A stretch of 21,712 nucleotides of DNA from a virus. Each line of letters starts with the position of its first letter. Positions within the stretch are counted from its first letter, which is position 1. Where the stretch lies: positions 1-21,712 of IMG/VR virus record IMGVR_UViG_3300007345_000331, one strand, 5' to 3'. The notes beneath the pieces are model-generated. The model made no database searches. It was not told the DNA's origin and worked only from the letters and a program-made list of their open reading frames with translations. Positions 5,592 through 18,466 of the stretch are shown here, piece after piece. Made by a program: the position numbers and the translations under genes.

Positions 5592-5801
5592 GTGATCGAT
5601 TTCGATAAGCTCGCTAAGTCCGTTGGGGGTCTCCCGAAACTCGCTGCTCTGGCAGGACGCAGCCGGACTGCTGTTTATCACTGGCGCAAGTCACGCGACA
5701 TGCGCGTGAGCGATCTCCTGCGGATCTGTGATGCCGCTGGCCTTGATGCGCGTGAGTTTCTGCTTGCGGAGGAGAACGCAACGAATGACGAGCTGGATTG
5801 A
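5592..5801 (+). CDS. Small HTH DNA-binding protein (Cro/repressor-like)
   Basis: 69 residues from a GTG start at 5592 with AAGGA 7-11 nt upstream. A longer frame back to 5484 would read through the operator and antisense to the Sak4-like gene, so I reject it. Residues ~10-50 form a compact helix-turn-helix (GGLPKLAALAGRSRTAVYHW then RICDAAGLD) similar to Cro-type repressors. It faces the recombination operon across the shared operator and overlaps the primase start by 17 nt, so it probably autoregulates and sets the level of replication genes. The target motif is inferred from position only. Confidence 0.7.
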   Translation: MIDFDKLAKSVGGLPKLAALAGRSRTAVYHWRKSRDMRVSDLLRICDAAGLDAREFLLAEENATNDELD

Positions 5802-7800
5802 TCACGCCCTAGAACTGCACGAAGAGGGGCTGAATGTTTTACCGATCTTTAAGGGCAGCAAGCTGCCAATCGTGCAGTGGAAGCAATGGCAGCAGCAAGA
5901 CCAGACGGAACAAGACCTTCTAGATATTGCTGACTATTTTCAGGGCGATACACCGCCAAGCTGGCTGATCGACTTGGGTGACCGTCACGGCGGACGGCCA
6001 TGGTTGTCGGCCAGCCGCAAGCAACGGCAGCATTGGCCAGAGCCGGTCGAGCTGGACATGGGTATCGTCTGCGGCATGCGGGCTGGCATCGTTGTTGTGG
6101 ACGTCGACAACGAAGAAGCACAGCAGCACGCCGAGCAGTGGGGCGTGACCAGAACTCCTATGGCCGCAGCCACACGGCGCGGCACGCACTACTATTTCAA
6201 GCACCCCGGCAAGCTGGTACAGAGCAATGCCGGTGTCGGCGTCGTTGGGCTGGATGTCAGGGGCGACGGGGGATACGCCCGTGTGCCGCCCAGCACCGAC
6301 ATGAAGTGGTTAAGGCGGGTTAACATTGACGAGCTGCCGCCGTATCCCAATCTGACCGCCGCTGTGCCAGCGAAGGCCGAGCCACAGAAGGCTGTAATCT
6401 ACGATCTGAGCGGCACAAGACTGCCCGACGAGACCGCCGAAGACTGGCTGAAGGGCAAGTGCAACGGCTCACGCATAGGCAAGGGCGAGCGCAACAACAC
6501 TATGGCCAAGGTTGTCGGCATGCTCATCAAGGAGCGCCGTGACAAAGACTGGGTCATCAAGCAGGCGCAAGAGCTTGGGGCCAAATACTTTGACCACAAA
6601 AAGTATGCGGGCGATGAGACTGTCCGCATCGTCGAGAGCCTGTGGGGGATCGACCAAAAGAACCACGGCGAGAAGTACGAAGAGCCGGTCGAGGTCGAGC
6701 TGCCTACCATCGGCTACATCAGCGACGCCAACAGCGAAGAGTTTATCGCAGCCATGCCGCCGCGCATGCCCGCCTACGTGGAGACGATCCTTGAGCCGGG
6801 TAAGGCAACGATGGTGGCGGGCTACGCTGGCTCGGGCAAGTCTGAGCTGTTGATGATGCTGCTCAAGGCAGCGTGCGATCCAAGCAAGCTCGGCACCTAC
6901 GTTGGCCCATGGCAGATCCAGCAGACCGCCAAGGCGCTGGTGCTTGACCCGGAGAACAACCCACACCTGATCACCGACCGCCTGAAGCGCTTCGGCTTGA
7001 TCGGCAACAGCGGAGATAACCTGCGCGTTATACCGGGCAGCGTGCCCGGACCAGACGGCATGGTCGACATGGCGCTGAACCTTCGTGAGGACGTTGGCCT
7101 CAAGCGGCTGGGCGGGCTGCTGTCGCAGCACAACCCCGACATCGTCGTCTTTGACACGGTGCGCTCTCACTTCCCCGGCCTGAAAGAGAATGAGGCCAGC
7201 GAGTGGACAGACTACAACGTGATCACGCAGAAGCTCTGCCGCATGGGCCTTTGCGTTGTGTGGCTGCACCACAGCAACAAGCCCGGTCCTGACGGCTACG
7301 CCACCGAGGCTGGCTCGAGCCACGCACTGACCAACATCAGCACGCAGATTTTCGTTAAGCCCGTCTACGAGGATGAGGCCATGGCCCAGCGCAAACACGG
7401 CATATGGAACGACGACGAGCGGTTTGCTTACGTGGATGCCAACGGCTCAGTGATGACGCCTCGCCAGCAGATCATGGCGGCGAACGGCATCCGTGACGAC
7501 TTCAGCCGTGTGAGCCAGATCAGCTACGGCAAGGTGCGAGAGGCCAACCCCATCACAGAGCGCACCTACTACCTTGGCCAGACGATTGCGCCGGTCGAGT
7601 GGCGGCCACTGCTGTTCAGCACCCGCTCAGTCAAGCAGGCGGCACAGAACCTGTTCATGTCACTGGTGCAAAGGGGTGACCCGAACGCGCTGCTGACGGT
7701 CAGTCAGAAGCTCCACGTTCCGATGCCGCAACTTGTCGAGTGGGGTCTACGCGCCGAGGCCCAAGATAGACAACTTCCGCAGGGCCAAACAGCTCTCTAA
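5785..7800 (+). CDS. Bifunctional primase-polymerase / superfamily helicase
   Basis: 671 residues from ATG 5785, with GGAGGAG about 10 nt upstream. The N-terminal half is a Prim-Pol (archaeo-eukaryotic primase fold): DVD at 106-108, RRGTHYYF with H135, and GLDVRGDGGY (D157), the three catalytic blocks of the family. The C-terminal half is a RecA-fold helicase of the RepA/KaiC type: Walker A GYAGSGKS at 346-353, Walker B PDIVVFDT at 451-458, then VVWLHHSNKPG. It should prime and unwind phage DNA at the origin. The next gene-free stretch carries origin-like structures. The last ~16 residues (EAQDRQLPQGQTAL) look unnatural; one base removed from the GGGG at 7742-7745 would give a longer tail ending at 7855. 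Confidence 0.88.
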   Translation: MTSWIDHALELHEEGLNVLPIFKGSKLPIVQWKQWQQQDQTEQDLLDIADYFQGDTPPSWLIDLGDRHGGRPWLSASRKQRQHWPEPVELDMGIVCGMRAGIVVVDVDNEEAQQHAEQWGVTRTPMAAATRRGTHYYFKHPGKLVQSNAGVGVVGLDVRGDGGYARVPPSTDMKWLRRVNIDELPPYPNLTAAVPAKAEPQKAVIYDLSGTRLPDETAEDWLKGKCNGSRIGKGERNNTMAKVVGMLIKERRDKDWVIKQAQELGAKYFDHKKYAGDETVRIVESLWGIDQKNHGEKYEEPVEVELPTIGYISDANSEEFIAAMPPRMPAYVETILEPGKATMVAGYAGSGKSELLMMLLKAACDPSKLGTYVGPWQIQQTAKALVLDPENNPHLITDRLKRFGLIGNSGDNLRVIPGSVPGPDGMVDMALNLREDVGLKRLGGLLSQHNPDIVVFDTVRSHFPGLKENEASEWTDYNVITQKLCRMGLCVVWLHHSNKPGPDGYATEAGSSHALTNISTQIFVKPVYEDEAMAQRKHGIWNDDERFAYVDANGSVMTPRQQIMAANGIRDDFSRVSQISYGKVREANPITERTYYLGQTIAPVEWRPLLFSTRSVKQAAQNLFMSLVQRGDPNALLTVSQKLHVPMPQLVEWGLRAEAQDRQLPQGQTAL

Positions 7801-7935
7801 CTTTATCGATGAAGGCGGCGACCTGCGGCTCTGCCGCACGGTTGCGGGCTGCTAATTCTTTCTGCCCAACTGTATCAAATTTTACGCTTTTCAAAAGATG
7901 CACTTTCCAGCAAGAACCGCTTAGCCGGGAAGACT

Positions 7936-7967
7936 GTTTTGCTCGGACCCTAAGGGGAGAGCAAAAC
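7936..7967. repeat. Perfect 9-bp inverted repeat (hairpin)
   Basis: Arms GTTTTGCTC (7936-7944) and GAGCAAAAC (7959-7967) pair perfectly; inside, CCC and GGG around TAA can extend the structure. The right arm is preceded by GGGGA, giving GGGGAGAGC, the same start as the element at 7982. Confidence 0.7.
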
Positions 7968-7981
7968 CAAGCTGAATGACT

Positions 7982-8046
7982 GGGGAGAGCGAACTCCTGT
8001 TCGCGAACGAACTTCAGAAGAGAGCACTCATGTGCTCGAACGAACT
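7982..8046 (+). repeat. Tandem hairpin units, each followed by CGAACGAACT
   Basis: Unit 1: stem GCGAAC/GTTCGC with loop TCCT (7989-8004), then CGAACGAACT (8004-8013). Unit 2: stem GAGCAC/GTGCTC with loop TCAT (8022-8037), then CGAACGAACT (8037-8046). The units are 33 bp apart. Bases 7982-8008 recur inverted at 8277-8251. Confidence 0.75.
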
Positions 8047-8072
8047 ACTAAACGACGAGCTATATATATAGG

Positions 8073-8122
8073 AACACGGGGGAAAACGGTTGTCAATCCT
8101 TAACCGTATTTTAGCCCGTGTT
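8073..8122. repeat. Nested dyad next to TA-rich palindrome
   Basis: Outer arms AACACGGG (8073-8080) and CCCGTGTT (8115-8122) enclose inner arms ACGGTT (8086-8091) and AACCGT (8102-8107). A 12-bp palindrome CTATATATATAG lies just upstream (8060-8071). The combination of an easily melted run and a large dyad beside a primase-helicase gene is origin-like; no experiment-level evidence is available. Confidence 0.55.
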
Positions 8123-8227
8123 AACCCGGCAGTGTGCTGGACAAGCCACGAAAATAAGCCCCACCGATAGCGAAACCGCCAAGCGGCACACGCACTGGGC
8201 GACCCTCCCAACCTACCTCTATCGCCC

Positions 8228-8277
8228 GAGCCGCAGGAGCGGCTCTCACTGTTCGCGCACAGGAGTGCGCTCTCCCC
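8228..8277 (-). repeat. Inverted copy of the 7982 hairpin element plus a second AGGA-loop hairpin
   Basis: Stem GAGCCGC/GCGGCTC with loop AGGA (8228-8245) and stem GCGCAC/GTGCGC with loop AGGA (8255-8270). Read on the minus strand, 8277-8251 matches 7982-8008 at 25 of 27 positions, and the two differences are the two partners of one stem pair (A-T changed to C-G). Confidence 0.75.
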
Positions 8278-8295
8278 GACTGCTCGGCTACTCGA

Positions 8296-8345
8296 CGCGC
8301 TCCCGGCCCTTTGGTGGGGCCGGTCGCGTTATCCCTGTCTTTTTT
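8296..8345 (+). terminator. Possible terminator: GC-rich stem followed by T-run
   Basis: CCGGCCC (8303-8309) pairs with GGGCCGG (8317-8323), flanked by CGCG on both sides. The run of T (8340-8345) lies about 12 nt beyond the stem base, farther than in a classical terminator, so this is a moderate call. Confidence 0.4.
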
Positions 8346-8382
8346 GCTTGCTGTGTCAAAAAGGTGTACATAAGATTAACAC
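8344..8382 (+). promoter_or_regulatory. Promoter with 30-bp dyad operator
   Basis: TTGCTT (8344-8349), a 17-nt spacer and TACATA (8367-8372) form a weak-35/fair-10 promoter for the HTH/zinc gene at 8400. The dyad GTGTCAA (8353-8359), GTAC (8366-8369) and TTAACAC (8376-8382) is symmetric about 8367.5 and covers the spacer and -10, so a bound protein would block transcription. This is the best-formed copy of the motif in the window. Confidence 0.65.
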
Positions 8383-8399
8383 CACGCATGAGGACGCCG

Positions 8400-8678
8400 A
8401 TGCCTGCCCGTGTGCTGACAGACGATGAAAGACAATGGCTTGCTGAACACGTTGCCGACCCCCTTGCCGAACAGGCCCGCCATCTCGGCGTTTGCACCGA
8501 CACAGTCAAGCGGCTGCACGTCCAGCATGGCCTTCGTCAATATCCCGGCGCCAAGTTTCAGAAGCGCAAGCGCGCCACTTGGGAGCGCCCGTGCATTAGC
8601 TGCGGCGACACCAAGCGCCGTCCGCGCAACCACTACCTCTGCAAGACATGCCGAAAGGAAGCGGGCTATGCCAGTTAG
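8400..8678 (+). CDS. HTH and zinc-knuckle DNA-binding protein
   Basis: 92 residues. The start at 8400 has GAGG six nt upstream; the in-frame ATG at 8388 has no RBS. Residues 7-45 read as a helix-turn-helix (LTDDERQWLAEHVADPLAEQ then DTVKRLH). C65, C68, C81 and C84 (CISC and CKTC) form a Cys4 zinc knuckle in a basic region. Directly downstream of the operator at 8353, it may be a controlled phage regulator or replication accessory protein. Its stop overlaps the start of the nuclease gene by 11 nt. Confidence 0.68.
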   Translation: MPARVLTDDERQWLAEHVADPLAEQARHLGVCTDTVKRLHVQHGLRQYPGAKFQKRKRATWERPCISCGDTKRRPRNHYLCKTCRKEAGYAS

Positions 8679-9048
8679 CGGACGCGGCGCGAAAGCAAAA
8701 GGCGACGCCTACGAACGAGAGTTGGCCGCCTTTTTCAACGAGGTGTGCGGGATCGAGTGCCACCGCACGCCTTTGAGTGGTGGCGGGAGGGGCGAAGCCC
8801 TTCCCGACATCACCGGCACCCCCGGCATCGCCATCGAGGCCAAGCGCCACGAACGCATTTCGCTCGACGAGTGGATGCGTCAAGCCCGCAAAAACAGCGG
8901 CCTCGACATCCCGGTCGTCATCAACCGCAAGTCACGCCAACCCCTGCCCGACAGCTACGTCACCCTGCACCTCCAAGACTTCGCCGCCCTCTACCGGGGT
9001 TGGCTCCAGCTTAACGGCTACGTGAAGGAGCAGCCCGATGACGGATAG
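8668..9048 (+). CDS. Holliday-junction-resolvase-like PD-(D/E)XK nuclease
   Basis: 126 residues from ATG 8668, with AAGGAA upstream. The Hjc-type pattern is clear: N-terminal GAKAKGDAYERELAAFF (Glu near 16-18), then LPDITG (D47), then AIEAKR (E57, K59) and a helix with ISLDEWMRQAR. Such phage enzymes cut branched recombination and replication intermediates before packaging. A longer frame from 8425 overlaps the whole zinc-protein gene and is a shadow. It is coupled to genes on both sides by overlaps. Confidence 0.8.
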   Translation: MPVSGRGAKAKGDAYERELAAFFNEVCGIECHRTPLSGGGRGEALPDITGTPGIAIEAKRHERISLDEWMRQARKNSGLDIPVVINRKSRQPLPDSYVTLHLQDFAALYRGWLQLNGYVKEQPDDG

Positions 9049-9676
9049 TAAGATCGACGAACTGATGGACGAACTCCAGTCCACCATCGACCGCACAAAC
9101 AGCCCGGACGCCTTGGTTGCCTTTCTCGTTACCGACTACAACGACCAGCTCCCCAAAGTGCGCGTCTTCGCCGCTATCCCGCCCGGCTCTGCCGATGACC
9201 TGCACGAAGTCATCAGCGCCGCCTTCGCCGAGCTGGCCGCCACTGCCCACAACACCAGCGACGCCCCTGTCATTGACCGGGTGGCCCAAGCTTTCTTCGG
9301 CTGCGACTTCTCGGAAGTCGACGACAAAGTGCGCAGCATGTGGGCGTTCAACGACAGCCTGATCAGTCTGCTCGACGCCCTCGTCGCCGCCAAGCTGGTC
9401 CGCCCGTCCGTCCACGATTGGTACTGGCCCTTCCGCAATTTCCTCGTCCAGCAGCCCTTCGACCTGAGCGATGGCCTCCGCGCTTTCGTTGGCCGTGGTC
9501 CCGATGGCAACGACGGCGACGACCTTGCGGGCATGGTGATCACCGCCGTCGCCATCCTCGCCCACTTCGATCCGGTCCACCTACCCGACGATCTCGACAG
9601 CGACATCGCCGTCGAAGCCAGCAACCTGTGCGGCTCGTTTCTCGATTGCGTCTTTGCCAAGCTGGAGGCGCATTGA
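9038..9676 (+). CDS. Hypothetical protein, acidic
   Basis: 212 residues that I do not recognise. It starts at an ATG overlapping the nuclease stop, with AAGGAG 7-8 nt upstream. It is acidic (many Asp), predicted mainly helical, with no signal peptide or membrane segment and only two Cys. The stop overlaps the next start (TGATG), so it is co-translated with the nuclease upstream and the secreted protein downstream. Confidence 0.65.
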   Translation: MTDSKIDELMDELQSTIDRTNSPDALVAFLVTDYNDQLPKVRVFAAIPPGSADDLHEVISAAFAELAATAHNTSDAPVIDRVAQAFFGCDFSEVDDKVRSMWAFNDSLISLLDALVAAKLVRPSVHDWYWPFRNFLVQQPFDLSDGLRAFVGRGPDGNDGDDLAGMVITAVAILAHFDPVHLPDDLDSDIAVEASNLCGSFLDCVFAKLEAH

Positions 9677-10047
9677 TGATCCGCATCGCAGCCGCTGCCG
9701 TCTTCGCCCTCGTCATCACCCTGTTGTGGCACCAGCAGTCTAGCGCGCAGAACATCATCACGCCGCGCGACCGCTTCCTCGAGATGCTGGACGAAGCACA
9801 GGCCGAGCCAACGCACGCAATCTGGTTCTACATCGCTGGCCTCATCGGCGGCGCCAACCTCGCCAGCGTTGCCCTCACTGGCCAGCCGATGGTCTGCGAC
9901 ACGCACAAGTTCGAAGACCAAGAGCGCACCACCGAAGTCATCATGGATTGGCTCGTCCGTTACGGCCACCTCGACAACCCCGACTTCCTTCTCGAAGTCG
10001 CTGCCCCTTTAGCTTTCGCAGAGGAGTACCCCTGCACCGAGATCTGA
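9676..10047 (+). CDS. Secreted Rap1a/Tai-like protein
   Basis: 123 residues. Residues 1-24 are a Sec signal peptide ending near SSAQN. The mature part has FYIAGLIGGANLA, a central Cys in VCDT, a helix with DWLVRYG, and an AFAEEYPC end. This layout (two spaced Cys, AL..AF.PC end) matches the Rap1a/Tai family, whose founders are periplasmic immunity proteins against type VI amidase effectors. In a phage it could act in the periplasm on cell-wall enzymes, or be a host-benefit gene. The family call is by pattern and moderate. Confidence 0.55.
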   Translation: MIRIAAAAVFALVITLLWHQQSSAQNIITPRDRFLEMLDEAQAEPTHAIWFYIAGLIGGANLASVALTGQPMVCDTHKFEDQERTTEVIMDWLVRYGHLDNPDFLLEVAAPLAFAEEYPCTEI

Positions 10048-10184
10048 GCGCGGCCTGCCACCATTCCGCGCTCCCGCCCCTGCCCATAAGAGCAATCTCC
10101 TCCCTGCTGCTGGGCGGGGGCGGTCCTGCCAACAAGCCACAGTCAAACGCAAGTACCGGGTTTTTCCTTCCTGTGGCCTAAACT
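10048..10184. other. Intergenic region with long inverted repeat
   Basis: Contains GCCACAG (10136-10142) and CTGTGGC (10171-10177), a 7-bp inverted repeat with a 28-nt loop. On the minus strand a GGAGGAGATTGC leader (near 10105-10092) precedes ATG 10087, which opens a 48-codon frame antisense to the secreted protein; I do not call that a gene. Confidence 0.4.
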
Positions 10185-10209
10185 GCCCCGCTTCGGCGGG
10201 GCTTTTTTT
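10185..10209 (+). terminator. Rho-independent terminator
   Basis: GCCCCGC and GCGGGGC (7-bp perfect stem) close a TTCG loop at 10185-10202, followed at once by seven T (10203-10209). This is a textbook terminator. It ends only 2 nt before the RBS of the gene at 10222. Confidence 0.9.
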
Positions 10210-10221
10210 CAGGAGCAGAAA

Positions 10222-10473
10222 ATGCACACAGACAAACGCGCCCTCTACCAAATGGCAGCTACCATCCTGTCAGGTCTGATGGCCAAAGGCAGCTACTACA
10301 CAGGCGACCCGAAGGTCGCCGCAGCGGCTGCATGGGACTACACCGAAGCACTTATCAATGAGCGCGATAGACGCATTGAGGCTCGTATAGAGCGAAGCCG
10401 CCAGAAAGAACGAGAAAGATACAAGGCCGAGCACCCGCAAGACCCGGACGACAGCCACCCAGCCAGCCCTTAG
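10222..10473 (+). CDS. Small phage protein of unknown function
   Basis: 83 residues with AGGAG 8 nt before the ATG. The first half (YQMAATILSGLMAKGSYY and AAAAAWDYTEALI) is the style of small phage proteins found in early or accessory regions; the second half is a highly charged helix (RRIEARIERSRQKERERYK) and a Pro/Asp tail. No motif assigns a role. A strong terminator ends within the leader, so expression would need read-through or a promoter not recognised here. Confidence 0.62.
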   Translation: MHTDKRALYQMAATILSGLMAKGSYYTGDPKVAAAAAWDYTEALINERDRRIEARIERSRQKERERYKAEHPQDPDDSHPASP

Positions 10474-10510
10474 TCTGTCAACATTAATAAATCGCCGGGA
10501 ATTTTAAAAA

Positions 10511-11320
10511 ATGGTCGACGTCGTCACAACGCCGGATCTCTTCCCCCTACAGGAAGACGGGCGCATGTTTCCTGTCACGCTGTCCGCCTATCGCACAGAC
10601 TACGATGGCCCACAGCACACCTACCAATCTGGTGTCGACTATCCGCCCGCCACGATCCGCTTCTACAACCCCGGTGGCGTCGCCAAGCGCTCCGACAATG
10701 CCCAGTCTTTCTTTGGCGCCCTTCAGTCTGCCGACCTACCGGGAAGCGACGGCAAGCCCCTGCCCACGCCCGCCTTCCAGTCGCCCGCAGACGGCGTTGC
10801 CTACTACGGCTATTGGGTTGCAGACCGGGTCGGCGAAAAGCCCACCATCTCCAAGATCGTGGCCCAGTACAACACCGGCAACTCAGCCGCCTACCAGCGT
10901 TACGTCCAGTCCGCCACAGGCCTCAACGCCGACGACGAACTATCCGACACCGATCTGGCCAAGGTGGCCCGAGCCATGTTTGAGTGGGAGAGCGGCGGCA
11001 CCTCATCCGACAGCATGAACGCCAAGGCGCTCGACGCGATGCTTTCCGACGTCGACATTGAGGACGAGATTGAACGTGGCCGTAAGGTTCACGAAGCGGT
11101 CCAGTCTGGCGACACAATCGGCGCTGCCATTCTGGGCAGTTCTGCCAACGTCTCCGCCAACGACGAGGTCTCGTCACGGCTCTCCACTATTCCGCAAGAC
11201 CTGTCAGTCTTTGGCCAGACGTTGATCAGCCCGCTCGGCGACTACGTGATCCATAGAAAAAGCCCCGAGCAAACACTCGGGGCTTCAACAATGTCGGAGT
11301 TTCTCCGCCTCCGCTACTGA
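10511..11320 (+). CDS. P5-like phage structural/lytic-type protein
   Basis: 269 residues from ATG 10511, which lacks a clear RBS; ATG 10565 has AGGAAG about 8 nt upstream and is an alternative. FYNPGGVAKRSDNAQSFFGA, then FQSPADGVAYYGYWVAD, then ISKIVAQYNTGN and AYQRYVQSATGL follow the pattern of phage proteins annotated as structural protein P5, thought to be related to lysozyme/transglycosylase-like virion enzymes. The C-terminal third lacks clear motifs. The 3' end contains a hairpin that acts as a terminator for the opposite strand and overlaps the convergent gene by 7 nt. Confidence 0.6.
   Translation: MVDVVTTPDLFPLQEDGRMFPVTLSAYRTDYDGPQHTYQSGVDYPPATIRFYNPGGVAKRSDNAQSFFGALQSADLPGSDGKPLPTPAFQSPADGVAYYGYWVADRVGEKPTISKIVAQYNTGNSAAYQRYVQSATGLNADDELSDTDLAKVARAMFEWESGGTSSDSMNAKALDAMLSDVDIEDEIERGRKVHEAVQSGDTIGAAILGSSANVSANDEVSSRLSTIPQDLSVFGQTLISPLGDYVIHRKSPEQTLGASTMSEFLRLRY
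11256..11284 (-). terminator. Minus-strand terminator inside a plus-strand gene
   Basis: AGCCCCGAG (11261-11269) and CTCGGGGCT (11276-11284) form a perfect 9-bp stem with a 6-nt loop. Read on the minus strand it is followed by five T (11260-11256), so it fits termination of the gene ending at 11314. It lies within the coding sequence of the P5-like gene. Confidence 0.8.
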
Positions 11321-11559
11321 GGCGGCGGGTACTTCCGGTGGGCCTCGACCAGTCGCCAGTGCTCCGGCAACAGATTGCCAGCGCTGATCTCTTCAATCCG
11401 ATTTAGCGCGTGCTGCTCCAGCTCGTCGCCGTAAAGCCCCGTATCAATAGCCATGTTCACCATGTCGTAGCACATGGCCACCCAGCGCACGTTGAACTGT
11501 AGCTCGCCGACCACCGACTTGTGCAGCGCCTCGACGTTTGCCTCATCCGTTGGCCCCAT
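11314..11559 (-). CDS. Small hypothetical protein
   Basis: 81 residues from ATG 11559: MGPTDEANVEALHKSV, then a helix with FNVRWVAMCYDMVNMAI and ELEQHALNRIEEI, ending HRKYPPPQ. I do not recognise it; it looks like a small helical phage protein. The frame extends upstream, but that part reads like a shadow and would remove the overlap with the short frame at 11785. A strong minus-strand terminator lies 30 nt after its stop. Confidence 0.55.
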   Translation of the reverse strand: MGPTDEANVEALHKSVVGELQFNVRWVAMCYDMVNMAIDTGLYGDELEQHALNRIEEISAGNLLPEHWRLVEAHRKYPPPQ

Positions 11560-11785
11560 ACTCGGCGCCCCCCATCGGAGGCGGGCACCAAACTTGGCCC
11601 TTGGAAATCGAGGTCCAGCGCAACGGGTGCAGTTGCTCGCCGGGGCGTTTGACCAGCCAGCCAGCCCGGACAGACCTCCCACGCCCACAGGGCGGGTCAG
11701 TAGCCCAGTATTCAGAACATAAATGGAACAAAGAATGGCGCGCTAAATTAGCGCTTGCGTGGCCTGCCTTCGTATGGCCTAGCAT
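11543..11785 (-). CDS. Possible small Cys-containing protein
   Basis: 80 codons from ATG 11785 with GAGGAGATTGCCA directly upstream, the same leader type as genes near 20 kb. The product has WATDPPCGRG and VWCPPPMGG and three Cys but no family I recognise. It overlaps the start of the gene at 11559 by 17 nt, typical of coupled phage genes. Codon use is less biased than its neighbours, and plus-strand frames over the same bases are also open, so this is a weak call. Confidence 0.35.
   Translation of the reverse strand: MLGHTKAGHASANLARHSLFHLCSEYWATDPPCGRGRSVRAGWLVKRPGEQLHPLRWTSISKGQVWCPPPMGGAEYGANG
11740..11754. repeat. Near-perfect palindrome
   Basis: GCGCTAA and TTAGCGC flank a single A: 7-bp arms. 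It lies inside the weak short frame, upstream of integrase A. It may be a binding site; no function is assigned. Confidence 0.45.
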
Positions 11786-11847
11786 TGGCAATCTCCTCAC
11801 GTTGTGCGCACATCGTGGCGGGATGCGGCAATCTCCTGCTGCTTGGA

Positions 11848-11875
11848 GGGTCGGCTTCGTGGTTGGGGCCGACCC
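11848..11875. repeat. 8-bp-arm hairpin
   Basis: GGGTCGGC (11848-11855) pairs with GCCGACCC (11868-11875). Neither strand is followed by a good T-run, so I do not call it a terminator. The loop, on the minus strand, contains CCAACCACGAA, also found before the gene at 18439. Confidence 0.5.
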
Positions 11876-12133
11876 TTCGCTTTGTGCTAACCACCACTTA
11901 GTCAAAACGATGGGTGTTAATAAAACGAACCGCATAACCCGCGTCAACCCACCCAAAAGACCCCACCAGCCACTCCACAAAATGGCCCACTAAGGCAGGA
12001 CTACACACAGCCACCCCACACCAGCCGACCGTAGATGCGCGCTGTGAAAATCCCTGTTGTCTGATCCGACACAAAAGTTTCCAGCATTCCCAGACACTTA
12101 CACACATACTCACACCCCCTCTACTCCACGGTA

Positions 12134-12198
12134 TTGACGAAAATCACTCCACAAGCTACGGCTACAACGGGTTAAATGAATGCAAACATTTTTAACCC
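12134..12198 (+). promoter_or_regulatory. Possible promoter and 30-bp dyad before integrase A
   Basis: TTGACG (12134-12139) is a good -35; the -10 17 nt on (TACGGC) is weak. Downstream, GGGTTAA (12169-12175) and TTAACCC (12192-12198) form a dyad spanning exactly 30 bp, the same span and a similar arm (GKGTYAA) to the operator at 8353, but with GCAA rather than GTAC in the centre. It would lie over the transcription start. Confidence 0.42.
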
Positions 12199-12224
12199 AG
12201 CCATGCCTTACAGGAGATAAACGC

Positions 12225-13322
12225 ATGCCAGCCACGCTACCACCGCATATCCACCAGACCAGAAACGGCACCTTCACCGCCCGTCTCCGTGTCCCCGCCG
12301 ACCTCCAGCCCGTGCTCGGCAAGACCGAGCTGCACAAGTCTCTCCACACTAAGAACCTGCGCGAAGCCAAAGTCTTGGCCCCAACCATCGTCGCCCAGCT
12401 CCGCCACCAACTCGACGAGGCCAAGCTCGCCCCGCACCCCGACCACGGCACCCCAATAGAAGCAGCCGCAGAGTTCCTACCACCCCGCCCCCGCCACAAG
12501 GCCGTGCTGCGCGATCTAATAAATCACACCCGCCTTCAACACGTCGAGTATCTGACCCTCTCCCACTGGCAGCGATGGTGCTACAGCCGGGAAGATTTGC
12601 AGCCCCAACGAACAGTAGCCACCGTCCGCAACGAGACCACGCTCATCCGCTCGGCCATCCTCAAACTGATGGCCTCTCGCCGCCTGCCCTTCGACCGCAA
12701 CCTGCTGACCCACCCCAAGTGGCGAGAAACAACGAAGGCCGAAATCCGCACCCGCCAGCAAGCCAACAGCCCCTACACCCTCGACCGTTGGCAGGAACTC
12801 TACGACGCCATGCCCCGCCGCACTGCCTTCCAGCGGTCCTGCCGAGCTGCCTTTGCCCTTGGTCTCCTCACCGGCGCTCGCATCAGCGAGATCGCCAACA
12901 TGACCACGGCCCAGATCCAAGACAATCTGTGGACGATCCCCCGCAGCAAGACCCTGCACGGCGAGCGAACGATCCCCCTAAACTCATTGGCCCAAGACGT
13001 CATCGCCAGCCTGACCCCAGACCCCGACGGCTTTCTGTTCTCCCGGCGAGACGATGACTGGTCGACCCAAGCCACCCGCTATTCGATGGCCCTAGCTCGC
13101 ACCCTAAAAAAAGCGGGTGCCGCCTCGCATGAAACCATGCACAGCACCCGCTCGACTTTCCGCACGCTCGTCCCTCGCTACGCCAGCTCACCCGAAGGCA
13201 CCATCGACATGCTGATGGGGCACGCCCCACCCAAGCACGTCGCCGCCGCCTACTACCGGGCCAGCCTAGCCGACTGCATCACTTTAATGCGCGCTTACAC
13301 GCCTTCAATCCGTCTGGATTGA
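12225..13322 (+). CDS. Tyrosine recombinase/integrase A
   Basis: 365 residues from ATG 12225, with AGGAG 8 nt upstream. The N terminus (GTFTARLRVPADL, SLHTKNLREAK) is the arm-type and SAM-like region of phage integrases. The catalytic set is complete: R219 (TGARISEI), K242, H306 and R309 (HSTR), H333 (MGH) and Tyr 343 or 344 (AAYYR). It integrates or excises DNA at an att site. It faces opposite to all neighbours to its right and overlaps the convergent gene at 13632 by 44 nt. It is unlike integrase B in length and sequence. Confidence 0.9.
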   Translation: MPATLPPHIHQTRNGTFTARLRVPADLQPVLGKTELHKSLHTKNLREAKVLAPTIVAQLRHQLDEAKLAPHPDHGTPIEAAAEFLPPRPRHKAVLRDLINHTRLQHVEYLTLSHWQRWCYSREDLQPQRTVATVRNETTLIRSAILKLMASRRLPFDRNLLTHPKWRETTKAEIRTRQQANSPYTLDRWQELYDAMPRRTAFQRSCRAAFALGLLTGARISEIANMTTAQIQDNLWTIPRSKTLHGERTIPLNSLAQDVIASLTPDPDGFLFSRRDDDWSTQATRYSMALARTLKKAGAASHETMHSTRSTFRTLVPRYASSPEGTIDMLMGHAPPKHVAAAYYRASLADCITLMRAYTPSIRLD

Positions 13323-13632
13323 TCGTCCAGCCCATCATCGAGGCCCAGTCGAGCACCAGCTCCAGATCGTAATGCCAAACGTAACTCACCTGCTCGGCGG
13401 GCAGCCCCTGCCGACGCAGGTTGGCCAGCCGCCTCGTCGTCTTCACGTCCAGCAACTGCATCACCTGCTTGTTGCCCAGCGTCTTGGGCTGCTTGGCCTT
13501 CTCTTCAGCGGCGATCAGCCGATCCAGCTCCTCGAGCCGCACACCCTGCATCAGCAGCGCGTACTTCCGATCCGCTATCGCCACTTGCTCACGCCGTGCG
13601 TCAGCGCACAGGCCTTCCCACATCAGCGTCAT
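13279..13632 (-). CDS. HTH protein, possible excisionase-like factor
   Basis: 117 residues. Start ATG overlaps the upstream stop (ATGA). Residues ~50-80 (LGNKQVMQLLDVKTTRRLANLRRQ then LPAEQV) look like a MerR/excisionase-type helix-turn-helix, followed by VSYVWHYDLELVLDWAS. The N-terminal half is a long helix. It lies directly against the end of integrase A, so it might be a directionality factor, but that is inference. Other small phage DNA-binding proteins share this fold. Confidence 0.6.
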   Translation of the reverse strand: MTLMWEGLCADARREQVAIADRKYALLMQGVRLEELDRLIAAEEKAKQPKTLGNKQVMQLLDVKTTRRLANLRRQGLPAEQVSYVWHYDLELVLDWASMMGWTINPDGLKACKRALK

Positions 13633-13907
13633 AGGCCATCCAGCACCCGCCGCATCTGATCGGGCGCCAATCGCAGTGCCCCACTCAGCTCGGCAAGCTC
13701 CTCGCCAGACGCAGCCCGTAGCCCGTCTTTGATCCGCCGTTTAATGGAGTTGGCCCGTCTGTCTTCCGGGCGTTCTTCGTGGGGCAGCGCCTGCCCCCGC
13801 AAGACCGAGAGGGTGCGCTCTAACCGCACCCGCAAGGTTGGCCCCATATCCTCGTCGCTGTCCAGCAGCTCGAGCAGCATGTTGGCCGCAGTTCTATTGG
13901 TGTCCAT
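13629..13907 (-). CDS. Small hypothetical protein, charged
   Basis: 92 residues from ATG 13907 with GAAGGG 8 nt upstream; a GTG at 13916 has no spacing for an RBS. Helical and charged, with an acidic SDEDMG segment, a basic middle (RRANSIKRRIKDG) and a SGALRLAPDQMRRVL end that could be a short HTH. Role unknown. It has its own promoter (13944-13971) and is coupled to the HTH gene downstream by ATGA. Confidence 0.62.
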   Translation of the reverse strand: MDTNRTAANMLLELLDSDEDMGPTLRVRLERTLSVLRGQALPHEERPEDRRANSIKRRIKDGLRAASGEELAELSGALRLAPDQMRRVLDGL

Positions 13908-13943
13908 GGTGTACACCCTTCAGCAAGTTAACCTCGCCGACAG

Positions 13944-13971
13944 AGTGTACACTTTTTTAACAGTTCGTCAA
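13944..13971 (-). promoter_or_regulatory. Promoter with operator half-site
   Basis: On the minus strand: -35 TTGACG (13971-13966), 16-nt spacer, -10 TACACT (13949-13944). The spacer holds CTGTTAAAAA and then GTGTAC, the same order and spacing as the operator motif at 5571-5553 and 8353. The second arm of the dyad is absent. A further GTGTACAC lies at the RBS (13909-13916). It should drive the genes at 13907 and 13632. Confidence 0.6.
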
Positions 13972-14423
13972 TTTCCGTTGACCATCAGCCCCGGCTTCAC
14001 CGGCGCAATGAGATGGCGCAGCTCGTCTGTGCCGCCCACCTCAGTCTTGAGCATGTAGTCCTTGCCAAAGCCGCCCGTGGCCGCCAGATAGTCGGCGTCC
14101 TCCGCCGCATCCAAGAACCGCTGGCACATGACCCGCAGCTCCGACTGCCTCGTAACACCAAACTTCTTACCGATCTGCCGCTGGTGCGTCTTTACGGTCT
14201 CCGTCGAGATGCCGCCCATGATTTTGGCGACATCCTCCAACTTCATCCCGTAAACCATCCCCTGCAAGACAGCATGCTGGCGTGGCGTCAGCTTGGTCAG
14301 CTCGGGGATCTCCGCCCCGGCCAGCCCGCCTTTCCCTTTGGCCTCCATACGCAGCACGACCTGCGTCAGCCCCTCCACGGCGAGGCGTAGGCTTTGCAGC
14401 TCCCTTCTAGTCTCGTCGTCCAT
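13968..14423 (-). CDS. LuxR-type HTH regulator
   Basis: 151 residues from ATG 14423 with GAGGAA 7 nt upstream; a longer frame to 14480 would read through the hairpin in the leader. Residues 44-105 match the GerE/LuxR-type HTH: LTPRQHAVLQGMVYGM, then DVAKIM, then STETVKTHQRQIGKKFGVTRQSE. The N terminus is a short coiled helix rather than an autoinducer or receiver domain. It sits in the lysogeny region next to integrase B, so it may control lysogeny or the accessory genes. Confidence 0.75.
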   Translation of the reverse strand: MDDETRRELQSLRLAVEGLTQVVLRMEAKGKGGLAGAEIPELTKLTPRQHAVLQGMVYGMKLEDVAKIMGGISTETVKTHQRQIGKKFGVTRQSELRVMCQRFLDAAEDADYLAATGGFGKDYMLKTEVGGTDELRHLIAPVKPGLMVNGN

Positions 14424-14441
14424 GGTTCGTTCCTCACAGTG

Positions 14442-14499
14442 CCTGTGGGGCGATGTTGCCCCCGCCTCCACAGGTGTCAAAAAACTTTACAGCAGTCAA
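14442..14499 (-). promoter_or_regulatory. Leader hairpin and operator-like site before the LuxR-type gene
   Basis: GTGTCAA (14474-14480) followed after 6 nt by TTAC matches one arm and near-centre of the operator motif, with the other arm missing. On the minus strand TTGACT (14499-14494) could be a -35; its -10 is poor. The leader then holds a hairpin: GGGGC/GCCCC (14447-14451 and 14458-14462) inside CCTGTGG/CCACAGG (14442-14448 and 14468-14474). Confidence 0.45.
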
Positions 14500-14502
14500 T
14501 AG

Positions 14503-14524
14503 ACTTACGTGCTAAAGCGTAAGT
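14503..14524. repeat. 7-bp inverted repeat at the end of integrase B
   Basis: ACTTACG (14503-14509) and CGTAAGT (14518-14524) with an 8-nt loop, spanning the integrase stop codon. No T-run follows on the minus strand, so a terminator is unlikely; an arm or core site for recombination is possible but untested. Confidence 0.4.
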
Positions 14525-15330
14525 ATTGCCTCCCTTCCGTCCTTCGCCGATACATGTGAGTAACGCATCACCATGCTCAGGTTCTTGTGGCCCAGCAAAT
14601 CGGCCACCACCCGCAGGCTCACGCCTTGCCGCACCAGCTCACTCGCGAACGTGTGCCGCGCATCATGCGGCTTGAAGTCCTTCAGCCCCATGCGCACAAC
14701 GTGCGGCCACCACACGCCATAGAACTCACGCTCCCGCCACTTCTGACCTGTTGGCCCCGGGAACACCAGCCCGCCGCCCTCACGGGCGGCCTCTATAAAT
14801 GGCCACAGCCGGTCGTGGATGGGGATCACACGCCAGTGCTCACCCCGCCCACCTTTCAACGAGCGCAGCCGCAACGTCTTCCGCGCGTAGTCCACGGCTT
14901 CTGTCTCCAGCTTCATCAGCTCGCCCTTACGCGCGCCCGTGAAGAACAGTGCCGTCGCTATCGGCTTCAGCTCCTCGGGCGCCTCTGCTAAGAACTGGTC
15001 CCGCTCCTCAACAGTCAGCCACCGTTCCCGCCCTGCATTGTCCCTTGGCCGGTCCAAATACAGCGGCTGATGCCCGTGCATCTTGCGCCAGTAATTCACG
15101 ATGCTCTTGACCGTATTGATCTCCCTGCGCTGGGCCGGGGCGCCTTGGCCCCGGTTCACGTAGTCGGAGATGTCCGATCCCTTGAGATCTAGTATGGGGC
15201 GGTCACCCATCAGCTTGCGAAACTTCTCCGCAAAATAGACGCTGGTCCCGCCAATGCTGCCGTAGCGCAGCTTACTCTTGATCCAGAAGTCGATGGCATC
15301 ATTCACCCGTGGTTTACGTGGCCGCCCCAT
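14512..15330 (-). CDS. Tyrosine recombinase/integrase B
   Basis: 272 residues from ATG 15330, with AAAGGAGG about 7 nt upstream. Catalytic residues are R134 (FTGARKGEL), K159, H222 and R225 (HDAR), H248 (LLGHKN) and Y257 (MRYSHV), the full tyrosine-recombinase set. It is shorter than integrase A and lacks its N-terminal arm, starting directly in the core-binding domain. It is the last of a chain of overlapping minus-strand genes, so it is likely expressed with the small genes upstream of it, unlike the separately promoted integrase A. Confidence 0.9.
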   Translation of the reverse strand: MGRPRKPRVNDAIDFWIKSKLRYGSIGGTSVYFAEKFRKLMGDRPILDLKGSDISDYVNRGQGAPAQRREINTVKSIVNYWRKMHGHQPLYLDRPRDNAGRERWLTVEERDQFLAEAPEELKPIATALFFTGARKGELMKLETEAVDYARKTLRLRSLKGGRGEHWRVIPIHDRLWPFIEAAREGGGLVFPGPTGQKWREREFYGVWWPHVVRMGLKDFKPHDARHTFASELVRQGVSLRVVADLLGHKNLSMVMRYSHVSAKDGREAILTL

Positions 15331-15577
15331 TGGCTCGCCTCCTTTCCTGCATTTGTTTGACCCACGGCCAGTCACTCAAGATGACCTCGCCATACGTCCC
15401 TTCCAGCTCGGCAACGAGGGCCGCCATCTTGTCGGGTGAGCGCATGCTCACCCGCCTTTCTTTGGCCAGCAGCGAGAGCTTCACCCAGAAGCAATCCGGC
15501 CACCAGTTGTCCGTCAGCTTGTACCAGCTCGCCTGAACCCGCACGGCCTGCCGCCGTGGTCTCGTTCGAAAGAACAT
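15314..15577 (-). CDS. Small hypothetical protein, basic
   Basis: 87 residues from ATG 15577, with GGAG 8 nt upstream; a GTG at 15586 overlaps the previous stop (GTGA) and is an alternative start. The N terminus is Arg-rich (RTRPRRQAVRVQ), then WYKLTDNWWPDCFW. It overlaps integrase B by 17 nt, so the two are coupled. I do not recognise the family; an integrase partner is possible from position only. Confidence 0.55.
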   Translation of the reverse strand: MFFRTRPRRQAVRVQASWYKLTDNWWPDCFWVKLSLLAKERRVSMRSPDKMAALVAELEGTYGEVILSDWPWVKQMQERRRANGAAT

Positions 15578-15582
15578 GTTGA

Positions 15583-15774
15583 TCACTCCGTCATCACTTC
15601 AAACTCTGGCTTACTGGTCGACGGCTCCCACTCGGAAAGTCTGTAAATCTCTATTGGCCCGTACTTCCGCCTCTCATCGACGAGCCAAGCAGCACGTCGA
15701 GCCTTCGACTTGAAGGCCCGAATTTCACGGTTCGAACGCCCGTCATAAAACACTTCTGCAAAATAGATTTTCAT
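15583..15774 (-). CDS. Small hypothetical protein
   Basis: 63 residues from ATG 15774, which overlaps the preceding stop (TGATG), with GGAAGGAG upstream inside the previous gene. It begins MKIYFAEVFYDG, contains an Arg/Lys-rich helix (FKSKARRAAWLVDERRKYG), and ends in a short Glu-rich tail. The plan resembles small phage proteins with a beta hairpin plus helix. No function assigned. Confidence 0.58.
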   Translation of the reverse strand: MKIYFAEVFYDGRSNREIRAFKSKARRAAWLVDERRKYGPIEIYRLSEWEPSTSKPEFEVMTE

Positions 15775-16052
15775 CAACCTCTCCTTCCATTCAGGATCTC
15801 ACTCACCCGCCCCGGATTAGTCCCGGCCATGTTGGCCAGCTCGGTCAGGTGCGCATCAGGGTGCAGGGTGGCCAGCCGTCTGACCTTGGCCACCGTGTGC
15901 AGATCCAGCCGGTTCTTGACCGGCCCTCGCCGCACCGGCTTGCGCCGGATCATAAGACCCAGCGCCACCTGCATGGCCGCCCGCATGTTCTCGACGTCGT
16001 CCATCTTCAAGCCCTCCAACAGGATGGCCCGTGCCTTTGGTATGTCGCTCAT
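15774..16052 (-). CDS. Small HTH protein
   Basis: 92 residues from ATG 16052, in the repeated junction GGAGGCAGCGTGATG. The C-terminal half has a helix-turn-helix (TVAKVRRLATLHPDA then LTELANMAGTNPGRVSEILN), ending in a basic NGRRG. The N terminus is helical (MDDVENMRAAMQVALGLM) with a basic linker. It is likely a DNA-binding regulator; the target is unknown. Confidence 0.62.
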   Translation of the reverse strand: MSDIPKARAILLEGLKMDDVENMRAAMQVALGLMIRRKPVRRGPVKNRLDLHTVAKVRRLATLHPDAHLTELANMAGTNPGRVSEILNGRRG

Positions 16053-16064
16053 CACGCTGCCTCC
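16050..16064 (-). repeat. Class B gene junction, copy 1
   Basis: GGAGGCAGCGTGATG on the minus strand. It encodes the final EAA of the gene at 16270, its TGA stop, and the RBS and ATG of the gene at 16052. Confidence 0.85.
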
Positions 16065-16270
16065 AATCGCTGAACAATCATGTCTTTCGTCAAAAGCTCG
16101 CAGTCTTCCGTCTCGTCTGATCTGGCCTCCCAGTCCTCTGGCGGCATTCCGTTGTAATACTCTTCCAGCACCAGCTCGCGCACAGCCTCTGCGCTGTCCG
16201 CCTGCCGCACCAACTGGTACTCCACCACGGATGTCACTTGCTCAAATACGGTCACTTTGTAGGCGCTCAT
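16052..16270 (-). CDS. Small hypothetical protein
   Basis: 72 residues from ATG 16270, in the shared junction sequence. It starts with a beta-strand-like stretch (SAYKVTVFEQVTSVVEYQL), then a helix (SAEAVRELVLEEYYNG) and an acidic segment. The shape resembles the protein at 19750 (strand then AEDEDEARKIF-type helix), which may indicate a shared small fold. Ends in LEAA, encoded by the junction repeat. No function assigned. Confidence 0.6.
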   Translation of the reverse strand: MSAYKVTVFEQVTSVVEYQLVRQADSAEAVRELVLEEYYNGMPPEDWEARSDETEDCELLTKDMIVQRLEAA

Positions 16271-16282
16271 CACGCTGCCTCC
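16268..16282 (-). repeat. Class B gene junction, copy 2
   Basis: Same 15 bases as copy 1, preceded by AA, joining the Trp-rich gene (ending KEAA) to the gene at 16270. Confidence 0.85.
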
Positions 16283-16704
16283 TTCAGTAGGGTTTCGTCC
16301 CAGCATTGCTGGCGGACACACTCGTCCATCCAGTCTTCGCCACGCAGGTCTTTGACGATGCCGGGGTCATCGCAGACCCAGTAGCCATCGGTCTCAATCA
16401 GCAGCCAGCCGCCCAAGAAGTCATGGTAGGCTTGGGCGTTGGGGTAGTCTTTGAAGGTGTCGACCACGGGCGTGATACTCACCTCGCCCCAATGGAACGT
16501 GTGGTCCCAAGCAACGTCACCATTACTGATGAACTGCTCAAGCGCCTTGACGACATCGTCGAATTGTCCGTAGGGCGCTTCCCAAACGCGGTCCATGTCA
16601 TTCGGCCCAGCTACAGCATGAATGGCCGACGCCACTTCTCGGGAGGTGTTACGGCAATTCGCCCACTGCTCGTCCACTTGAGTGTGGATGTACTTATCCT
16701 TCAT
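16270..16704 (-). CDS. Hypothetical protein, Trp-rich
   Basis: 144 residues from ATG 16704 in the shared junction. Acidic and unusually rich in Trp and Asp (WAPY-like, DVAWDHTFHWGE, GGWLLIETDGYWVCDD), with three Cys. No signal peptide or membrane segment. I do not recognise it. Ends in LLKEAA, encoded by the next junction repeat. Confidence 0.6.
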   Translation of the reverse strand: MKDKYIHTQVDEQWANCRNTSREVASAIHAVAGPNDMDRVWEAPYGQFDDVVKALEQFISNGDVAWDHTFHWGEVSITPVVDTFKDYPNAQAYHDFLGGWLLIETDGYWVCDDPGIVKDLRGEDWMDECVRQQCWDETLLKEAA

Positions 16705-16716
16705 CACGCTGCCTCC
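16702..16716 (-). repeat. Class B gene junction, copy 3
   Basis: Same 15 bases, joining the MarR-type gene (ending KEAA) to the Trp-rich gene. Confidence 0.85.
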
Positions 16717-17153
16717 TTGTCGTTCGTCTGAAACTTTTCGATGGTGTCCAGCAGCGCCCGCGCAAACTGGGCGCCCTTTTCTGTCAGCACCAACTGCTTC
16801 CGCCTGCCGTCGAGAGGGTCGGGCCGATACTCCAGCGCCCGATGTCCCTCGTAGTAGATCTTCCGACCGTCAGGAGCGGTGTAGCTGTACGACTGATCCG
16901 TCCACCAAGACGTCAAGCGACTGGTGGCGCTTTCGCTTAGGCCGTATCGTTTGAAGTTGAAGTCCTTCAGGTCTCGCAGCTCATCGATGTCTTCGATCCA
17001 GACATTCAGGATGCTGAGTGCCCGAGTGATGGGCATATCTCTGGCCGTTTGGTCGATGTTGTCCGCGCCTCGCTGCCCGTGACAGTTGAGGTAGGCGAAC
17101 TCTTCAAGCACCCCCCGCACCAGCCTCAGTGCCTCTAGTTTCTGGTCGCTCAT
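16704..17153 (-). CDS. MarR-type winged-helix regulator
   Basis: 149 residues from ATG 17153 in the shared junction. Residues 71-85 (GLSESATSRLTSWW) fit the recognition helix, and DPLDGRRKQLVLTEKG at 112-127 matches the MarR wing consensus (DP.D.R...LT..G), followed by the dimer helix FARALLDTIEKF. It is likely a transcription regulator of the accessory genes or of a host promoter. Ends in NDKEAA from the next junction. Confidence 0.66.
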   Translation of the reverse strand: MSDQKLEALRLVRGVLEEFAYLNCHGQRGADNIDQTARDMPITRALSILNVWIEDIDELRDLKDFNFKRYGLSESATSRLTSWWTDQSYSYTAPDGRKIYYEGHRALEYRPDPLDGRRKQLVLTEKGAQFARALLDTIEKFQTNDKEAA

Positions 17154-17165
17154 CACGCTGCCTCC
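17151..17165 (-). repeat. Class B gene junction, copy 4
   Basis: Same 15 bases, joining the gene at 17440 (ending KEAA) to the MarR-type gene. Copies 1 and 4 also share the next bases, giving MSD at both starts. Confidence 0.85.
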
Positions 17166-17440
17166 TTTTCTTCATCAATCGTTATCACGGCGTGCAGGCA
17201 CTCCAGCGCATCGGCCTTCAGCCCACGCTCGTAGGCCTCCTTCAGCAGGCCCTCCGCCTTCAGTCGGGCGCTCTCCTTGCGGTGCATCATCGATGTCCGC
17301 CGCACGGCGGACAGCAGGTCTCGCCGCTCCATGTCCGTCAGCCGCAGCGTGACCGTCAGCGAGCGTGCCTCGTCGAGATAATCGACGGGCACCTCCCGCA
17401 GCAGCCACAGGTCTTCGACCAGCAAGCTGTGCTCTGTCAT
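17153..17440 (-). CDS. Small hypothetical protein, helical
   Basis: 95 residues from ATG 17440, overlapping the upstream stop (ATGA), with AAGGGGG upstream. It has a strand-like SLTVTLRLTDMERRDLL then a long charged helix (HRKESARLKAEGLLKEAYERGLKADA), and ends EEKEAA. The LTVTLRLTDMERRDL segment could be a ribbon-helix-helix, but I do not assign a function. Confidence 0.58.
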   Translation of the reverse strand: MTEHSLLVEDLWLLREVPVDYLDEARSLTVTLRLTDMERRDLLSAVRRTSMMHRKESARLKAEGLLKEAYERGLKADALECLHAVITIDEEKEAA

Positions 17441-17679
17441 GCTGGCCCCCTTTCAAACCGCTGCTCCCACGCAGCAGCCGCTCCGTCCCGAAGGCCCGCC
17501 AGATAACTCTCGGTGGCCCCCCGATCATCGCCATCACTGATGGCCTGCTCGATGGTGTGGCCCACGAACCGGCGGTAGGCGTCGCCATCAAGGTGCTGCG
17601 TGTTCACAAACGCCACCCGCTGGCTGGCTTGCTGCGCCAGCCGCCAGCCCACTTGGTACTGAGTTGGTTGAATGCGCAT
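17437..17679 (-). CDS. Small hypothetical protein
   Basis: 80 residues from ATG 17679, with GAGGAGG 5 nt upstream. Helical, with RRFVGHTIEQAISDGDDRG and an Ala-rich end. No motif recognised. The longer frame to 17820 reads antisense-like Ser/Arg sequence over the neighbouring gene and is rejected. Confidence 0.55.
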   Translation of the reverse strand: MRIQPTQYQVGWRLAQQASQRVAFVNTQHLDGDAYRRFVGHTIEQAISDGDDRGATESYLAGLRDGAAAAWEQRFERGPA

Positions 17680-18439: not shown

Positions 18440-18466
18440 AGTCGTAGTCCTTTTCGTGGTTGGTTA
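18440..18466 (-). repeat. Class A gene junction, copy 2
   Basis: From the ArdC gene stop (TAA): TAACCAACCACG, then AAAAGGA and the XRE ATG. The RBS half differs from the other copies. Confidence 0.7.

Follow-up and report, generated by a model that had tools for sequence, protein, structure and literature searches.

What is the function of the hairpins that fill a non-coding gap beside the replication gene of a marine phage? The gap is approximately 500 bp long (positions 7904-8399) and lies in an IMG/VR viral record of 21,712 bases, analysed over its full length and here called the window. It separates the gene for a primase-polymerase (Prim-Pol)/helicase protein from a small HTH/zinc-ribbon gene, and the source of the record is a CRP-810-like phage. 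A preliminary description of this DNA named a structured RNA, a hairpin origin and a protein-bound hairpin as options, and made no choice between them. Of these we favour the origin. We suggest that the gap is the replication origin of the phage, with a probability of about two in three. The structure and the location of the hairpins are well supported, and the origin function is what we infer from them.

Genes around the gap

The features of the locus are listed in Table 1. The genes leftward of the gap encode a Cas4-like exonuclease, a Sak4-like ATPase and the Prim-Pol/AAA_25 protein of approximately 670 aa, the start codon of which was picked by inspection. Rightward are the small HTH/zinc-ribbon gene and then the gene for a RusA-like resolvase. 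Adjacent genes at 13968-15375 encode a LuxR-type regulator and an integrase, a pair that Roseobacter phage CRP-810 also has. The window has two tyrosine-recombinase genes, at 12180-13322 (+) and 14512-15375 (-), the second being the one paired with the LuxR-type regulator as in CRP-810. An ArdC-like protein with an ArdcN and a zincin-like metallopeptidase domain is encoded at 18464-19342 (-).

Table 1. Features of the gap and of the genes next to it (positions in the window; a dot means that no strand is given)
Feature	Position	Strand	Remarks
Replication protein, Prim-Pol (PF09250) fused to AAA_25 / RSF1010 RepA-type helicase	5785..7800	+	Pfam PF09250 3.5e-19, PF13481 1.6e-12
Small gene MIN, GTG start, overlapping the Prim-Pol gene at its 3' end in antisense	7700..7903	-	ORF
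H0, 9-bp stem GTTTTGCTC..GAGCAAAAC with inner CCC/GGG stem	7936..7967	.	DNA fold z -4.2
Left arm of the inverted repeat, holding H1 (7989-8004, GCGAAC-TCCT-GTTCGC)	7982..8008	+	
Iteron-like repeat CGAACGAACT, second copy 8037-8046, 33 bp apart	8004..8013	+	Direct repeat; the copies follow H1 and H2
H2, GAGCAC-TCAT-GTGCTC, loop TCAT, direct-repeat copy of H1	8022..8037	+	
Low-GC segment between the hairpin clusters, candidate unwinding region	8040..8200	.	
Candidate leftward promoter, TTGACA (8096-8091) and TATATA, spacer approximately 20	8065..8096	-	TGTCAAT and TATA columns do not vary within the close group
H3, GAGCCGC-TCCT-GCGGCTC on the minus strand (plus strand GAGCCGC-AGGA-GCGGCTC)	8228..8245	-	
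Right arm of the inverted repeat, holding H4 (8255-8270; minus strand GCGCAC-TCCT-GTGCGC)	8251..8277	-	
GC-rich hairpin CCGGCCC-TTTGGTG-GGGCCGG	8303..8323	.	No terminator T-run after it in the scan
Candidate HTH-gene promoter TTGCTT-17-TACATA, overlapping palindrome-like operator GGTGTACATAAGATTAACACC	8344..8383	+	TTTGCTTGC columns invariant in the close group
Small HTH and zinc-ribbon protein, candidate origin or operator binder	8400..8678	+	Syntenic CRP-810 homologue, 41% identical
RusA-like / PDDEXK Holliday-junction resolvase	8668..9048	+	phrog_244 1.7e-22, PF24608 1.7e-9

A search with a Prim-Pol profile gave 80 viral loci. Nine of these, from eight distinct phages, form a close group with Prim-Pol proteins 57-64% identical to that of the window, and approximately 70 form a distant group with identities near 28%. 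The gene order Cas4(-), Sak4(-), Prim-Pol(+), small gene(-), gap, HTH(+), resolvase(+) is common to approximately 70 viral contigs from both groups. Homologues of MIN gave significant matches at the same place in approximately 50 loci or viral contigs, CRP-810 included. The counterpart in locus L004 is at 13700-14017 (-), and the annotation of CRP-810 does not contain this gene. The HTH/zinc-ribbon gene, with its counterpart at L004 14266-14559 (+), is likewise unannotated in CRP-810 and is kept beside the hairpin element. Its product is a candidate origin-binding or autoregulatory protein; an RWP-RK-like match of this protein is below the cut-off.

Hairpins in the gap

The core of the gap is an inverted repeat, the arms of which had been described as complementary at 25 of 27 positions. 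A repeat search recovered the same arms (27 nt, 93%, 242 nt between them), with a score of 21, whereas 200 dinucleotide shuffles gave 12 at most. The two differences are indeed both partners of one stem pair, A/T in H1 and C/G in H4, and the two hairpins with 4-nt loops that had been placed at 8022 and 8228 are present there as H2 and H3. To this set we add H0, the GC-rich hairpin and a 28-nt direct repeat (7986-8013 and 8019-8046).

Hairpins with a stem of at least 6 and a loop of 3-6 number four in 7904-8399, against a shuffle mean of 0.48, and four were reached in 2 of 500 shuffles. No other 496-bp stretch of the window is as dense in hairpins. Those with a TCCT, TCAT, AGGA or ATGA loop and a stem of at least 5 are found only in the gap, with the exception of one within a gene at 18388. 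Folded as single-stranded DNA, H0-H4 and the GC-rich hairpin have z from -2.3 to -4.2.

Folding of the whole strand predicts a long-range stem of 27 bp, which we rejected as the functional fold of the window. The local hairpins are preferred because both mismatches break the long stem yet keep the local hairpins, and because close-group locus L007 matches in the hairpins only.

GC-rich hairpins downstream of the Prim-Pol gene, with T-runs near 8340, could also be transcription terminators at the end of that gene. However, the terminator scan was negative at these hairpins, the T-run lies approximately 16 nt past the stem and overlaps the conserved TTTGCTTGC candidate -35, and the hairpins come in inverted clusters. 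We find this explanation hardly credible.

Conservation among relatives

One pair change within the window is by itself thin evidence for a selected fold. The gap region is also present in two viral contigs from other metagenomes, at 99.4% and 95.6% identity, with all hairpins kept. In the latter contig none of the 22 differences in the gap falls within the stems (P about 0.02).

None of the eight distinct close-group phages has lost the outer stem of H0. Pairs 6, 7 and 8 of this stem show complementary changes, and L013 and L014 have one T.G pair in common. The right-side hairpins of L007-L012 have GCTCC-CCC-GGAGC in common, with complementary pair variation further out and a C.C mismatch in L011. 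Read off the sequence, L007 repeats the pattern of H1 and H4 of the window: its left hairpin and its right hairpin both have the loop motif TCCGGGGGA, inverted with respect to each other, and a single pair distinguishes them, A-T in one and C-G in the other. Inverted hairpins with the same loop on opposite strands are found in the window and in L007. In L013 and L014 a TTAT or TGAT loop is common to both sides. In L008-L012 the left and right hairpins differ and have no common motif, and L011 has no left hairpin.

Some details of these hairpins should be noted. In the left hairpins at L008:8213-8236, L010:4502-4525 and L012:8218-8243, the CAAACATA/TATGTTTG stem is tipped by GCGAAGC, which we take to be an unusually stable DNA mini-hairpin. 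At L013:8187-8210 and L014:5140-5165 the left hairpin is replaced by GCGAGC-TTAT-GCGAGC, in which pairing is possible only via tandem G.A mismatches. A separate inverted repeat, TGATCTCAAGCA with a span of 149, is found in the exonuclease gene region of the close group (L007 4117-4265, L008 4099-4247 and L010 388-536).

The distant phages have in their gap an element of 90-150 nt, the closing arms of which are perfect over 10-14 bp. Of 41 non-redundant loci, 23 have the strongest inverted repeat of their contig (span 60-160) in the gap, where 3.0 would be expected (p 5e-16). A MAFFT alignment of all 32 elements was too divergent for consensus folding, and an anchored subset, A7, was used instead. 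Among 14 aligned sequences, nine of the 12 pairs of the closing stem are changed on both sides, and the covariation is 0.635, whereas shuffles give 0.195 and sliding gives no more than 0.14. In L027 and L028 the closing stem is reduced to 7 bp by loss of its outer part, and no clear element was seen in L053 and L038. A scan of genome contigs gave one distant match only and no usable prophage. Distant loci also have a further 12-bp inverted repeat, TCGTGCAGGTCT with a span of 119, within the Prim-Pol coding region, for example at L048 2024-2142, L047 6995-7113 and L065 7013-7131.

The preliminary description held that a fold is under selection and could be examined by covariation in relatives. 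In the relatives studied here pairing is kept with compensatory changes; H0 has complementary changes at three pairs and the distant closing stems covary strongly, which bears this claim out. The feature is real, is under structural selection and has a fixed place beside the Prim-Pol initiator gene.

It could be argued that the hairpins are selfish or passive palindromic repeats, inserted in an intergenic gap that tolerates them. The type of hairpin is specific to the phage (the loops are TCCT in the window, GGG in L007 and GCGAAGC in L008), and near-identical copies of some occur in a single phage (L010). On the other hand, the window has no other intergenic copies, the elements occupy a single fixed place across highly divergent phages and the closing stems are kept by covariation. 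We consider such an insertion very unlikely.

Promoters, repeats and base composition

Between the two hairpin clusters is an 80-mer with 41% GC, which is among the lowest 0.06% of 80-mers in this contig of 60% GC. The candidate leftward promoter in this region was not called in a strict promoter scan. Most distant phages have a candidate leftward promoter of the form TTGACN-17-TANNNN, the -10 of which is within the right arm of the closing stem. A perfect GGTGTAAA..TTTACACC palindrome precedes the HTH gene in L007 and L008. The hairpin promoters of N4-type vRNAP have 3-nt loops and go together with N4 replication genes; we rejected this candidate, as the loops here are of 4 nt and the gene module is different.

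The arms might instead be inverted double-stranded operators that regulate the divergent promoters without any hairpin being formed. In favour of this, the elements are flanked or overlapped by the candidate divergent promoters, the HTH gene has palindrome-like operators ahead of it, and the window has the CGAACGAACT repeats. Operators of this kind do not agree well with arms in which the letters vary among phages and complementarity is kept, nor with the window hairpins, which keep their stems and loop motif and change pairs. In addition, many distant elements have an apical helix in which a mismatch is retained 7-8 bp from the loop; read on the plus strand, it is mostly A.G, G.A or T.T. A mismatch at a fixed place is meaningless in duplex DNA and points to a folded single strand, not to a duplex binding site. 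Inverted operators are a rather improbable explanation of the hairpins. It should be noted that, because the site also holds two candidate divergent promoters, some of the conservation may be regulatory.

At the gap, plus-strand GC skew drops from approximately 0 to between -0.04 and -0.17 in all close-group contigs examined; a drop is also seen in some distant ones. In the window, plus-strand skew is strongly negative from approximately 8000 to 17500, whichever way the genes are oriented, and close to zero on both flanks of this stretch. Some observations speak against the gap being an origin: the hairpins of the close group are not uniform, the closing stem is shortened in L027 and L028, and GC skew along CRP-810 as a whole has no clear switch.

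DNA or RNA fold

The 32 closing stems, with approximately 350 pairs, contain no G.T and no A.C and are Watson-Crick except for two cells. As these stems came from a Watson-Crick search, a second search was done in which G.T and A.C were scored neutrally. This gave 21 G.T and 28 A.C pairs against 458 Watson-Crick pairs in 34 loci; wobble is not enriched on either strand and the core is still Watson-Crick. Structured RNAs usually tolerate G.U pairs. A Watson-Crick core with no excess of wobble therefore favours a DNA fold over an RNA fold, although this is not proof.

A structured RNA would be located in the 5' leader of the leftward MIN transcript, or in a read-through RNA from the Prim-Pol gene, and would control expression. 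H0, H1 and H2 do lie between the candidate leftward promoter and the small minus-strand gene, and all elements fold far better than shuffles. For the distant elements, RNA of the minus strand folds on average 4.5 kcal/mol better than RNA of the plus strand (Wilcoxon p 8e-6), but the shuffle-corrected z-scores of the two strands are nearly equal, about -6.3 and -6.8 (averaged by hand). The apparent minus-strand preference is not carried by the z-scores, and a choice of strand from RNA folding energy was rejected. Besides the lack of wobble excess, several points disagree with an RNA. Neither candidate transcript includes H3, H4 or the GC-rich hairpin, which sit between the two divergent candidate promoters. 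The leftward transcript of most distant phages cannot hold the full closing stem, because the candidate -10 is inside the right arm of that stem. Rfam 15 at gathering score gave no match in the window and, in 13 relatives, a tRNA only; a tRNA search of the window gave none. We regard an RNA element as unlikely.

Comparison with known replication origins

AlphaFold models of the Prim-Pol/helicase protein of the window were made from 41 sequences, with a mean pLDDT of 81 for the whole and 88 for the N-terminal part. The model of the Prim-Pol domain is closest to pRN1 ORF904 (Z 12.6, rmsd 3.5, 156 aligned), followed by NrS-1 (Z 7.8) and RepB' (Z 5.8). The helicase model is closest to RSF1010 RepA (Z 19.9, rmsd 3.5, 233 aligned; the next match has 17.5). 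Going by the best matches of the models, the initiator appears to be a chimera of a pRN1-like Prim-Pol fused to an RSF1010 RepA-like helicase.

Replication of plasmid pRN1 depends on a stem-loop of 100 nt that lies downstream of the Prim-Pol gene, and is recovered when a complementary change makes the stem symmetrical again (PMC4234260). Neither gel-shift nor footprinting experiments showed specific binding of the full-length pRN1 protein to this region, and a like stem-loop requirement was proposed by the authors for Bordetella phage BIP-1 (PMC4234260). Our control, Bordetella phage BPP-1, has a convergent small gene beside its Prim-Pol gene, and an inverted repeat of 104 nt lies between this gene and the small one that follows. 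Most distant loci and CRP-810 resemble these systems in having a non-coding stem-loop of approximately 100 nt just downstream of the Prim-Pol gene. As in pRN1, the symmetry of the stem is kept rather than its sequence, and a PF09250 protein is encoded beside the element. The pRN1 replication protein has an SF3 helicase and a C-terminal winged helix; the helicase here is instead of the RepA/AAA_25 type. Also unlike pRN1, the element is flanked by a convergent small gene, candidate divergent promoters and an HTH/zinc-ribbon gene. The window itself departs further from the pRN1 type; it has two inverted hairpin clusters instead of a single stem-loop, its best inverted repeat spans 296 nt and its conserved units are local hairpins.

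Replication of plasmid RSF1010 starts at the ssiA and ssiB hairpins, one on each strand, which are recognised by RepB' (PMC4434180). The window resembles the RSF1010 oriV in arrangement, with inverted hairpins for each strand around a low-GC segment and with two iteron-like CGAACGAACT repeats, and its helicase domain is closest to RepA. In contrast to RSF1010, there are two hairpins on each side, no RepC homologue was identified, and the Prim-Pol is fused to the helicase and pRN1-like, with a Z of only 5.8 to RepB'. Phage NrS-1 also has a Prim-Pol, with one recognition site on each strand (PMC7102993); these are 8-nt sequence motifs, whereas in our phages the fold is kept.

CRP-810-type phages (PMC11288001) have the same order of the replication module and the same LuxR and integrase pair. 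CRP-810 has a syntenic stem-loop (TGGTACAAACGC/GCGTTTGTACCA), although the Prim-Pol of the window is only approximately 32% identical to its Prim-Pol. The terms 'hairpin' and 'origin of replication' do not occur in the text of the published description of CRP-810-type phages (PMC11288001), and our literature searches gave no other report of a hairpin or an origin in the CRP-810-like family.

Proposed origin and its significance

By analogy with these systems, the gap most likely serves as a replication origin, one that varies the stem-loop design of pRN1 and BPP-1. In brief, the gap would unwind at the low-GC promoter segment near 8040-8200, perhaps with the aid of transcription or of the small HTH protein. 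Once exposed, the strands would fold, H1 and H2 (with H0) on one side and H4 and H3 on the opposite strand. The Prim-Pol/helicase of the phage itself would recognise the hairpins and prime each strand. Unwinding, recognition by the Prim-Pol, priming and origin activity are proposed here; what we observed are the hairpins with their covariation and fixed place, the folds of the modelled protein and the lack of wobble excess. In most of the family the origin would be one stem-loop of 90-150 nt with a perfect closing stem, and in the subgroup of the window it would be split into two inverted hairpin clusters, arranged like ssiA and ssiB of RSF1010. Since the window has several hairpins in place of the single closing stem, we infer, rather than observe, that the two designs have the same function.

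More tentatively, and with the odds somewhat against it, we speculate that the chimeric initiator of this marine family recognises origin hairpins of phage-specific sequence. The single ancestral stem-loop would then have become paired, inverted, strand-specific priming hairpins in the subgroup of the window, and hairpin and initiator would coevolve and thereby set the specificity of the origin.

If the gap is an origin, a globally distributed marine phage family would gain one with conserved stem pairs that can be mutated; the one description that we found reports none. Initiation by a Prim-Pol at a stem-loop would extend from one archaeal plasmid and a few phages to many phages with a different helicase. 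It would also become testable whether Prim-Pol initiators read the fold of the DNA rather than its sequence, a question that was left open in the work on pRN1.
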